Of a DNA stretch of 64,000 bases, positions 22,101-25,551 are shown piece by piece (within the stretch, counting starts at the first letter, position 1; every line of letters begins with the position of its first letter). Origin of the DNA: an uncultured Opitutia bacterium. GTDB lineage: Bacteria > Verrucomicrobiota > Verrucomicrobiia > Opitutales > UBA953. The notes beneath the pieces were generated by a model. It did not search any database, had not been told where the DNA came from, and saw nothing but the letters and a program-made list of their open reading frames with translations. Where the stretch lies: NCBI GenBank assembly GCA_903840355.1, contig CAIMFJ010000005.1, positions 62,001 to 126,000 of the forward strand. The letters run 5' to 3'. Position numbers and translations under genes: made by a program.

Positions 22101-23252
22101 ATGCCTTCAACTGCACACCGCCTGACTGGTTTTACGGAATCTGTGATTAGGGGGATGACGCGCTTAGCCAATCAACACGGGGCGATTAATCTTTCTCAGG
22201 GGTTTCCAGATTTTGAGCCTCCAGAGGAATTGCTGGCGGCGTTGGAACGGGCGACGCGTGGGCCGAATCACCAGTATGCGGTGACATGGGGTGCACCTCG
22301 TTTTCGCCAAGCCTTAGCCGCCAAAATCAATCGCTTCACCGGGCTCACCTTGGATCCAGACCAACACCTTGTGGTCACTTGTGGCAGCACCGAGGCCATG
22401 ATGGTGGCGATGATGACGGCTTGTAATCCCGGGGACAAGGTCATCGTCTTCTCGCCGTTTTATGAAAATTATGCGGCCGACGCGATTTTGTCGGGAGCCG
22501 TCCCCCTCTACGTTTCCCTGCGCGCCCCAGATTTCAAATTTGATCCGGAGGAGCTCACTAAAGCTTTTGCACAAAAGCCCAAAGCCATCATCGTTTGCAA
22601 TCCTTCTAATCCTTGTGGTAAAGTTTTCACGCGCGAGGAATTGATGCAGATTCTCGAGTGGGCGGAGCAGTATGATACTTTTGTCATCACGGATGAACCT
22701 TATGAACACATCGTTTACGAACCCCAGCAGCACGTGCATTTCGCAGCTCTGCCAGGGGCTTTTGAACGCACCATTACCTGCAATTCGCTCTCTAAGACTT
22801 ATTCCATTACCGGTTGGCGCTTGGGTTATGTGCAGGCAGCCCCCCAAGTGATTGCGCAAGCCCGCAAGGTGCATGACTTTTTAACCGTTGGAGCAGCCGC
22901 TCCTTTGCAAGAAGCGGCGGTGGCGGGGCTGGAATTGCCGGATAGGTATTACCAAAATCTTCGTCAGCGTTACACGGCGAAGCGTGATTTATTTAACACG
23001 ATTCTGACCAAGACCGGTCTGAAGTTTACTGAACCTCAAGGAGCTTATTACACCTTGCTCGATATTTCACCGCTTGGTTTTAAAACGGATCTCGAAGCCG
23101 CGCAGTGGATGGTGCAAGAAATCGGCGTCGCCGGTGTGCCCGGCTCTTCTTTCTTTCGCGAGCCTGAGCATCGTTACCTTCGTTTCCATTTTGCGAAACA
23201 AGAAGCCACGCTTTTAGCGGCTGGCGAAAAACTCGCTAAGTTGCGTCGGTGA
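22101..23252 (+). CDS. Class I/II PLP-dependent aminotransferase
   Basis: A 383-residue fold-type I aminotransferase resembling the methionine/kynurenine aminotransferase group: INLSQGFPDFEPPEEL near the N-terminus, CGSTEAMM, NPSNPCGKVF (Asn contacting PLP), TDEPYEHIVY and the PLP lysine in SLSKTYSITGWRLGY, with a C-terminal HRYLRFHFAK arginine for the substrate carboxylate. The substrate is not resolved. The ATG at 22101 is preceded by GGGTGGGGG; a TTG at 22071 would add ten residues. Confidence 0.9.
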   Translation: MPSTAHRLTGFTESVIRGMTRLANQHGAINLSQGFPDFEPPEELLAALERATRGPNHQYAVTWGAPRFRQALAAKINRFTGLTLDPDQHLVVTCGSTEAMMVAMMTACNPGDKVIVFSPFYENYAADAILSGAVPLYVSLRAPDFKFDPEELTKAFAQKPKAIIVCNPSNPCGKVFTREELMQILEWAEQYDTFVITDEPYEHIVYEPQQHVHFAALPGAFERTITCNSLSKTYSITGWRLGYVQAAPQVIAQARKVHDFLTVGAAAPLQEAAVAGLELPDRYYQNLRQRYTAKRDLFNTILTKTGLKFTEPQGAYYTLLDISPLGFKTDLEAAQWMVQEIGVAGVPGSSFFREPEHRYLRFHFAKQEATLLAAGEKLAKLRR

Positions 23253-23305
23253 GGTACGAGTGTAACGTCGGAGAGTGAGGCCGTCAGTCTCTTGGGCGGA
23301 GGCGG

Positions 23306-23369
23306 AAATAATTATTATATAATTATTATAGATAAAGACTTGACGGTGCCGATCCGGTGAGCATATTGC
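23306..23369 (+). promoter_or_regulatory. Strong stable-RNA-type promoter with UP-like AT tract
   Basis: An A/T tract of about 32 bases (23306-23337, repeats of AATTATTATA) directly precedes TTGACG (23340-23345). Candidate -10 hexamers are CATATT (23362-23367, 16-bp spacer) or TATTGC (23364-23369, 18-bp spacer). An AT-rich UP element against a good -35 is the arrangement of rRNA promoters. No protein-coding frame follows. Confidence 0.6.
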
Positions 23370-23500
23370 TTTTCAGACGTTCAATTAATGCGAAGAAGAC
23401 TTTAATCATTACAAAACGTGCTAGGCAGTAGCACTTTGTAATCGCATTGGTTGGTGCTCCGTTCCGGAGCCCTAGAGTTTTTCCCATCCTTTAAGGATCT

Positions 23501-23512
23501 TGCTCTTTAACA
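23501..23512 (+). promoter_or_regulatory. boxA antitermination motif
   Basis: TGCTCTTTAACA is identical to the boxA core of E. coli rRNA operons, which binds NusB-NusE and protects untranslated transcripts from Rho. It lies about 130 bases after the predicted transcription start, as in rrn leaders, but no rRNA follows. Confidence 0.6.
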
Positions 23513-23596
23513 GTCTAACTTGAGGTGCGTGCGCTGGGCGTACGCGTGTCGATGAGACGTGCTTAGTTGCTTACAAGCAACTCATCTGTGATGATT

Positions 23597-23670
23597 TTGC
23601 AGGTAGAATTCTGGAGAATTCACGTGTTACCGAAACACGGTTAGGCGGGTTCGATTCCCGCGCCTGTGTC
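23597..23670 (+). ncRNA. Degenerate tRNA-like element
   Basis: The T-arm is canonical (GCGGG, TTCGATT, CCCGC at 23645-23661). The D-arm is GAAT/ATTC with GG in the loop. The anticodon arm is CGTGT/ACACG with loop TACCGAA, which puts A, not the near-universal T, at position 33 and gives a nominal CCG anticodon. Acceptor pairing (TTGCAGG with CCTGTG) requires a bulged G, and no CCA follows. It is best read as a pseudo-tRNA or tRNA mimic. Confidence 0.5.
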
Positions 23671-23673
23671 TTT

Positions 23674-23746
23674 GTTGGAACTGTTTATGGATCCTAACTG
23701 TTTACAGGAGCCTGGAGCTCTAGGCTTGGCCGCATGGCCTTCCAAC
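23674..23746 (+). other. 73-base element closed by a 7-bp stem
   Basis: GTTGGAA (23674-23680) is perfectly complementary to TTCCAAC (23740-23746), enclosing 59 bases with smaller hairpins (CTGT/ACAG, GCCT/AGGC, GGCC-GCAT-GGCC). The size and 7-bp closing stem match a tRNA acceptor, but no proper anticodon arm is present. Its function is unknown. Confidence 0.35.
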
Positions 23747-23791
23747 ATCCCCTTGATTGGCTACGCAGAATTAATCGTAGTCAAATTTTAT

Positions 23792-23866
23792 GACCTGGTA
23801 GTTCAACGGATAGAACAGTGGATTTCTAAATCACTTATACAGGTTCGAATCCTGTCCGGGTTACCA
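23792..23866 (+). tRNA. tRNA-Arg (anticodon TCT)
   Basis: A 75-base tRNA. Acceptor GACCTGG pairs with CCGGGTT (two G-T). The anticodon loop TTTCTAA gives TCT on stem GTGGA/ATCAC, with an A-A mismatch at the loop-closing pair. The T-arm contains TTCGAAT, and A plus CCA is encoded. It is the last element downstream of the boxA-containing region. Repeat block 2 starts five bases after it. Confidence 0.9.
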
Positions 23867-23871
23867 TTTGA

Positions 23872-24078
23872 GGTAGGGAGGCTGCTGCGACAGCCTCCTT
23901 GTACGTGAGTGAGAGCGGATGGCATGGTAATGCCATCCCTACCCAATCCTAATGATGACGATGTCTTGGGTAGGGACGTGATTACCATCACGTCCGTTGG
24001 CAAAGACCGACTTATTAGTAGCTCGATTTTAAAAGGTACCAGTTGACGCAAGGACGAGGACGCAGCCTCGTCCCTACC
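23872..24078. repeat. Palindromic repeat block 2 (four modules)
   Basis: The same module family as block 1: 23872-23898 (GGAGGCTG stem), 23917-23944 (GGATGGCAT stem, loop GGTA), 23969-23996 (GGACGTGAT stem, here perfect) and 24053-24078 (GACGAGG stem). It fills the gap between tRNA-Arg(TCT) and the DUF1501 gene. Confidence 0.85.
23907..24078 (+). repeat. Long direct repeat, copy 2 (about 172 bp)
   Basis: The second copy of the segment at 21206-21377, same orientation and equal length. It ends nine bases before the DUF1501 stop codon. The two copies bracket the NTF2-like gene, the aminotransferase and the structured RNA region. Confidence 0.85.
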
Positions 24079-24087
24079 TGATTCCGA

Positions 24088-25551
24088 TTACGCGAGCAGA
24101 GGCTTGATGACGTTGCCGTGAATGTCGGTCAGACGGAAGTCACGACCTTGATAACGGTACGTAAGTCGAGTGTGATCCACGCCCATGAGGTGCAGGATCG
24201 TCGCGTTGAGGTCGTGCACGTGGACGCCATCTTTGACGATGTTGTAACTAAAATCGTCCGTTTCCCCAAACGTCTTGCCGCGATTAACACCCGCCCCAGC
24301 CATGAGAACGGTAAAGCAACGTGGATGGTGGTCGCGCCCGTAATTCGTTTCAGTGAGCGTGCCTTGAGAGTAAGTCGTCCGTCCAAACTCGCCGCCCCAA
24401 ACGACTAAGGTGTCGTCGAGCAAGCCGCGTTGTTTCAAGTCCGTGAGCAAGCCAGCGGTGGCTTGGTCGGTGTCATTACACTGTCCTTTGATGGCCTTGG
24501 GCAAGCCGCCGTGGTGATCCCAGCCCATGTGGAAGAGTTGCACGAAGCGCACATCGCGTTCGCAGAGTCGACGTGCTAAGAGGCAGTTCGATGCATACGA
24601 GCCTGGTCGTTTGACATCGGGACCATAGAGGTCGAGCACGTGCTGAGGCTCTTTGGAGAGATCCAGTAAATCCGGCACACTGGTTTGCATGCGGAATGCC
24701 ATTTCATATTGGGAGATGCGCGTTTGAATCTCGGGATCACCTAGGACGCCATGGTGTTGGTTGTTGAGGGCAGCGATTTCATCGAGCTGTTCGCGCCGTA
24801 CTTCACGCGGGATACCTTCGGGGTCTTTGAGGTAGAGCACGCGCTCACCCTTATTCCGTAGCTTTACCCCTTGGTGACGTGAAGGCAGGAAGCCTGCCCC
24901 CCAAAGTCGGTCGTAGAGCGGTTGATCGTCGGGACGGCCGCTACCAAACGACGTCATCACGATGTAGGCTGGCAGGTCTGAATTTTCGCTCCCTAAACCA
25001 TAAGCAGACCAAGCTCCGATGCTAGGGCGACCCGCAAGTTGACTACCCGTTTGCATGAACGTGATCGCTGGGTCGTGGTTAATCGCCTCGGTGTACATGG
25101 CACGTACGACGCACCATTCGTCGGCCTTCGAGGCGATGTGGGGGATGAGTTCGCTGAACCAAGCCCCCGATTGGCCATGTTGTTTAAATTTAAAAATCGT
25201 GGGCGCAACGGGGAAGGATTTCTGCCCCGAAGTCATAGTGGTTAGTCGCTGACCTTTGCGGATTGATTCAGGTAAATCTTTCCCGCGCATGGCTTCCAGT
25301 TGGGGCTTGGGGTCGAAGAGATCCATCTGCGACGGAGCTCCCGATTGGAAGAGGTAGATGATGCGTTTCGCTTTAGGTTTAAAATTGGGGAAACCTAGAC
25401 CCGGGTTGCTGGCCAAAGCGGGCGAAGCCATCAGCGAGCCCAAGGCGGCTAAGCCGATGCCACCGGCTGAACCTTTGATAAAAGTTCGGCGGGATAAGGC
25501 CATCTGGGTGGCCGCATCCAGTCCGAGAAATTGGCGATCGTTGCAGTTCAT
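24088..25551 (-). CDS. DUF1501 protein with twin-arginine signal
   Basis: A 487-residue protein of the DUF1501 family, related in fold to sulfatases and alkaline phosphatases. The N-terminus carries a Tat signal (SRRTFIKGSAGGIGLAALGSL), so it is probably exported folded. Family stretches include FLFQSGAPSQMDLFDPK, HGQSGAWFSELIPHIA, FVQLFHMGWDHHGGL, VWGGEFGRTT and GRDHHPRCFTVLMAGAG, several with putative metal-binding His/Asp. The start at 25551 overlaps the PSD1 stop by four bases; an extension to 25605 would add residues before the usual start. Members almost always pair with PSD1 proteins; the reaction is unknown. Confidence 0.92.
   Translation of the reverse strand: MNCNDRQFLGLDAATQMALSRRTFIKGSAGGIGLAALGSLMASPALASNPGLGFPNFKPKAKRIIYLFQSGAPSQMDLFDPKPQLEAMRGKDLPESIRKGQRLTTMTSGQKSFPVAPTIFKFKQHGQSGAWFSELIPHIASKADEWCVVRAMYTEAINHDPAITFMQTGSQLAGRPSIGAWSAYGLGSENSDLPAYIVMTSFGSGRPDDQPLYDRLWGAGFLPSRHQGVKLRNKGERVLYLKDPEGIPREVRREQLDEIAALNNQHHGVLGDPEIQTRISQYEMAFRMQTSVPDLLDLSKEPQHVLDLYGPDVKRPGSYASNCLLARRLCERDVRFVQLFHMGWDHHGGLPKAIKGQCNDTDQATAGLLTDLKQRGLLDDTLVVWGGEFGRTTYSQGTLTETNYGRDHHPRCFTVLMAGAGVNRGKTFGETDDFSYNIVKDGVHVHDLNATILHLMGVDHTRLTYRYQGRDFRLTDIHGNVIKPLLA

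Follow-up and report, generated by a model that had tools for sequence, protein, structure and literature searches.

A candidate phage-type, boxA-led stable-RNA operon on the chromosome of an uncultured Opitutia bacterium

UP elements, boxA and NusB-dependent antitermination are hallmarks of rRNA operons, whose usual spacer tRNAs are those for Ile and Ala. The leader of these operons, with its UP element, its boxA and NusB-S10 antitermination, is one of the described systems closest to the locus reported here, which carries the same signals in the same order but has no rRNA downstream. Phage tRNA arrays, including those that bear GOLLD, form a second one. They share with our locus a promoter, a boxA, a structured RNA with tRNA-like parts and tRNA, whereas the unit described here has a single intact tRNA, lies on a bacterial chromosome with no phage genes nearby, and contains an RNA that matches no Rfam family. 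GOLLD and ROOL are ornate structured phage RNAs found near tRNA islands (PMC12286853). GOLLD (RF02032) is able to hold tRNAs, and the RNA of our locus is about half its length. Finally, a 17-nt T-arm of this RNA is identical to the consensus of tmRNA (RF00023), although the tmRNA core is absent.

In this study we focus on positions 23306-23898 of a window of 64,000 nt from an uncultured Opitutia bacterium, the window being part of contig C5 (660 kb) of a 99%-complete draft genome of 2.27 Mb. Features are on the plus strand unless stated otherwise. In our judgement the locus is probably, though by no means surely, a captured phage-type boxA-led stable-RNA operon, inserted in this single genome.

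The unit begins with an A/T-rich, UP-element-like tract (23306-23337, 30/32 A/T). The initial annotation had described a 32-base A/T tract, which is slightly too long, as two G lie within it and the pure A/T run covers 25 nt (23306-23330). The TTGACG reported at 23340 is indeed present (23340-23345), and the -10 element thought plausible is found as CATATT (23362-23367) after a spacing of 16 nt; together they make up a putative sigma-70-like promoter, TTGACG-16-CATATT (23340-23367), with 9/12 matches. This promoter is plausible but not proven, because shuffled sequences yield about one promoter-like site per 900 nt. On the minus strand, a promoter-like site TCGGCA-16-TATAAT (10/12 matches, 23325-23352) overlaps the A/T tract and is directed back at the aminotransferase gene.

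The exact boxA that had been noted is located at 23501-23512 and reads TGCTCTTTAACA. It fits the published consensus GYTCTTTAANA, which is a gamma-proteobacterial one (PMC5725501), and the interpretation in terms of UP element and boxA is reasonable. Under the assumption of equal base frequencies, the 12-mer would occur by chance in a transcript of ~500 nt with a probability of ~3e-5. The 11-mer GCTCTTTRACA has one copy genome-wide, compared with four copies of the reversed control, and a scan of the 29 further tRNA loci in the host did not find it in their flanks. Since it is no commoner than its control, its evidential weight comes from position and not from enrichment. In relatives, matches to the 11-mer fall in coding-looking stretches without a tRNA. 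Here, boxA stands in the leader of a tRNA unit, as in boxA-led phage-type tRNA operons, with a tRNA-like element ~85 nt and tRNA-Arg(UCU) ~280 nt downstream.

Between the promoter and the tRNA, the 417 nt of 23375-23791 are predicted to fold at -147.3 kcal/mol, while dinucleotide shuffles give -118.7 +/- 5.9 (z -4.86, with 0/100 shuffles equally good), which bears out the strong stems claimed earlier; sub-domains of this region reach z values of -1.9 to -3.6. The predicted fold comprises a long 5' hairpin at 23382-23453 (outer arms 23382-23393/23442-23453, inner 23408-23442), a GC-rich hairpin around GCTCCGTTCCGGAGC (23454-23472), a strong GC-rich hairpin TGAGGTGCGTGCGC-TGG-GCGTACGCGTGTCG (23519-23552), the hairpin AGTTGCTTACAAGCAACT (23565-23582) and, beyond the tRNA-like element, a second domain of four helices (23673-23747) closed by the helix TGTTGGAA/TTCCAACA. 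The 5' arm of the latter domain has an alternative predicted partner, AACAGTCTAAC, that overlaps the end of boxA; as both pairings use the same arm, the two folds are mutually exclusive. Another hairpin (23757-23783, z -3.1) is predicted directly 5' of tRNA-Arg(UCU).

The tRNA-like structure at 23598-23670, a cloverleaf, had been overlooked in the initial annotation. ARAGORN calls it tRNA-Arg(ccg), with an Rfam tRNA score under the cut-off, and we take it for a degenerate or repurposed tRNA-Arg(CCG). In our own alignment to the tRNA frame, from which the position numbers are taken, it displays a 7-bp acceptor stem (UGCAGGU/GCCUGUG) with three wobbles and no CCA, a D-arm with GG and A21, C15 opposite G48, an anticodon loop UACCGAA with A33 in place of U33, and a perfect T-arm, GCGGG-TTCGATT-CCCGC, of which ~0.0008 are expected in shuffles of this RNA. 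It fails as a functional tRNA on account of A33, the three acceptor wobbles, the missing CCA and the lack of an RF00005 match over threshold. Its unusual D-arm, AGAATTCTGGAGA, recurs just once among 725 distinct tRNAs, in a member of the viral array L178, which is itself led by a boxA. The locus had been described as the least explained stretch of the window, but a degenerate or repurposed tRNA accounts for part of its structured RNA, and phage counterparts of its layout exist.

The tRNA-Arg(TCT) annotated at the 3' end is retrieved by ARAGORN at 23792-23866 and by Rfam with 59.4 bits. It has the properties of a functional tRNA, being over the Rfam cut-off, with an encoded CCA and U33 (it is absent from the list of non-U33 tRNAs). 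A further, ordinary tRNA-Arg(UCU) is encoded by the host at C8:205211, so that the window copy, the second of this anticodon in the genome, is redundant by anticodon. Elsewhere the host carries an atypical second tRNA-Gly(TCC) with an unusual D-arm (G000 C5:54251-54319, L130).

The neighbours examined around 23306-23898 (aminotransferase, DUF1501, PSD1/PSCyt, trpA, carbamoyltransferase and dihydroorotase-like genes) are ordinary chromosomal genes, with no phage genes among them. From its gene content (DUF1501, PSD1/PSCyt), the host would be of a Planctomycetota/Verrucomicrobiota type. With such neighbours and no phage homologue, the unit does not qualify as carried by a phage or prophage. The aminotransferase gene adjoins DUF1501 in ~10 congeners as well, where the spacer contains short repeats but neither a tRNA nor anything like the unit. 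The initial annotation had proposed to compare these loci in relatives for conservation, and what the comparison returned is that the entire unit is missing from the syntenic spacer, which makes it an insertion or a lineage-specific gain. Among the genomes searched, the whole unit is present in this one only.

BLAST over genomes of the genus (55), the family (79) and the order (373) returned no homologue of the ~415-nt RNA, its only matches being to the tRNA and to scraps 16-34 nt in length; none was found in phage or plasmid records either, nor with exact patterns in viral contigs. A covariance model (R1), made of one sequence entered twice, retrieved its own genome and 48 others among 384 class genomes, these 48 with weak, tRNA-looking matches of 21-34 bits; those inspected (L205, L211, L212 and L217) are tRNAs, as is the best foreign match in viral loci (L178, 38 bits). 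With no homologues there is no covariation, and a phage origin would therefore rest on the architecture of the unit. The Infernal check against Rfam that had been suggested gives no family for the structured RNA, only the tRNA being over threshold. Membership of GOLLD or ROOL was ruled out, as cmscan returned no match to either model, the conserved 3' domain of GOLLD included, on 23200-24100 at E up to 10. A tmRNA or permuted tmRNA was rejected in the same way, the match being confined to the T-arm (17 bases, 17 bits for a cut-off of 47); a normal tmRNA is encoded elsewhere in the genome, at C7. A match to the tymovirus tRNA-like element (17 bits for a cut-off of 40) was judged to be due to chance.

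The architecture itself recurs in viruses. A pattern of boxA with a T-arm/T-loop 120-150 nt downstream is present in 48 viral contigs (36 distinct), against 7 (3 distinct) with a permuted boxA, a conservative control since the permuted motif retains CTTTRACA. A same-strand tRNA lies within 600 nt at 27 of the 36 distinct viral loci, 26 of which have at least two tRNAs. The scan demanded a T-arm, so that T-arms in these loci are partly selected for, a bias that the independent scan of family A (see below) lessens but does not remove. The distinct loci are mostly tRNA arrays, some of which extend to GOLLD, while some hold non-tRNA structured RNAs bearing T-arm hairpins; in several units such an RNA sits, as it does in our locus, between boxA and the tRNAs. 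Many of these viral contigs place boxA 17-32 nt upstream of the first tRNA, in part behind a good sigma-70 promoter. Phages DSS3_MAL1 and MD18 carry a tRNA array running on into GOLLD and tmRNA, with GCTCTTTGACAATTTGGCTGTCCA ~120 nt upstream of its first tRNA. A boxA or near variant is located ahead of phage tRNA/GOLLD arrays in L242 (DSS3_MAL1, 1521), L243 (MD18, 583), L145 and L149:5093; in L145 the match to the GOLLD model follows ~600 nt downstream of it. Bacterial and archaeal genomes yield 13 loci with the pattern of boxA and T-arm. Nine of these have tRNAs, among them multi-tRNA arrays from Terriglobia, Actinoplanes, a betaproteobacterium, a planctomycete and Methyloprofundus. A tRNA-Arg(UCU)-like element with G33 for U33 is found inside the GOLLD of both phages (L242:3059-3134 and L243:3059-3134), and T-arm sites that ARAGORN does not call as tRNAs occur in further boxA-led viral RNAs (L136, the L142 group with L147, L157, L166 and L171, L155/L160 and L180).

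One recurrent structured RNA, here termed family A, heads tRNA arrays in 13 viral contigs (GTAAGTAGA...CTCTACTTAC; L135:975-1222, L149:3601-3848, L151, L153, L231-L233, L235, L236 and L238-L241). All members have a boxA or near variant, followed by a CGNAAG hairpin, GTAAGTAGAG-hairpin-CTCTACTTACA, a variable part with 0-3 T-arm hairpins, and a second TGTAAGTAGAGTT that is able to pair with the same CTCTACTTACA strand, so that two long helices exclude each other. The internal hairpin shows compensatory changes, and T-arm hairpins number 12 in the 13 sequences, where shuffles would give 0.01. Family A has no Rfam match at gathering thresholds. Its alignment with the window RNA revealed no convincing homology, and the latter is not a clear member.

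These data suggest that phages have repeatedly used the rRNA-type boxA antitermination signal for long arrays of tRNAs and ncRNAs, among them those with GOLLD; a partial literature search found no paper linking boxA antitermination to such arrays. If this is true, phages are predicted to depend on host NusB when they express their tRNA arrays and ornate RNAs. The window would then present a boxA-led tRNA-array unit, or a look-alike, that sits in the chromosome of a bacterium with the phage itself missing.

Of the two readings offered in the initial annotation, a stable-RNA operon with a structured RNA fits the promoter, the boxA, the fold and the tRNA. In the captured operon that we favour, a strong promoter with its A/T-rich UP element would drive an untranslated RNA, and the NusB-S10 (boxA) complex would load on TGCTCTTTAACA and keep Rho from stopping the polymerase on this untranslated transcript. 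Host tRNA-processing enzymes could then free tRNA-Arg(UCU), and the upstream tRNA-like RNA would stay behind, either as a structured RNA of its own or in the role of a processing/leader element. Most likely, one lineage would have captured the unit from a phage or a similar element and received it between aminotransferase and DUF1501. The recurrence of the architecture in viral contigs, the D-arm shared with L178, the syntenic site without a tRNA in relatives and the redundant anticodon speak for this reading. Against this captured-operon reading are the promoter with only 9/12 matches, the absence of phage-gene neighbours and of an RNA homologue, and the affinities of the tRNA, which matches genus tRNA-Arg(CCU) at 76-78% and phage tRNAs at 74%, a marginal difference.

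Because of that slight nearness, a local duplication stays in play and is the main rival, although we hold it to be unlikely. A host-born tRNA-Arg(CCU) would have diverged and turned UCU, with a decayed tRNA-Arg upstream and with boxA and stems as an incidental leader. The pseudogene-like state of the tRNA-like structure and the lack of genome-wide enrichment of the boxA 11-mer are in line with it. On the other hand, the helices of that structure are intact beyond the acceptor, the fold is far better than in shuffles, an exact boxA would hardly fall by chance between promoter and tRNA, the host tRNA loci examined have no boxA, and the layout is found in phages.

It is rather less probable that the locus encodes a new structured RNA acting in trans, in which the tRNA-like structure is the functional part, serving for instance as a decoy of anticodon nucleases or of enzymes that bind tRNA, while the tRNA is a passenger. 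This would agree with the retention of tertiary signals (D-loop GG, C15-G48 complementarity and T-loop) next to a disabled anticodon loop, and with the G33 element that GOLLD likewise embeds in DSS3_MAL1 and MD18, but the absence of homologues, and hence of covariation, argues against it. More speculative still, the RNA could represent, on a chromosome, a class of boxA-led phage RNAs not described before, which carry T-arm modules or tRNA-like ones whose anticodon loops are disabled. Such RNAs would work in trans, as decoys that divert tRNA-binding enzymes or tRNA-cleaving defence nucleases, and the bacterium would have retained this one together with a spare tRNA-Arg(UCU).

An rRNA-operon relic, the other reading of the initial annotation, or a leader moved from such an operon is very improbable: the order of UP element, promoter, boxA and stems resembles such a leader, but the window contains no rRNA pieces, an Arg tRNA with an Arg-type tRNA-like element is not the usual spacer content, boxA is found only once in the assembly, which is 99% complete, and relatives lack the unit at the syntenic site. 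A search for 16S detected none in the host genome and 54 congeners, and missed 16S in 5 of 14 controls.

Downstream of the tRNA, a predicted hairpin GGAGGCTG/CAGCCTCC (23877-23898) followed by TTGT may mark the end of the unit. Short inverted repeats of the GTAGGGACGTGATTACCATCACGTCC type lie at 23867-24010, and are also present in the same spacer of the relatives L108 and L110.
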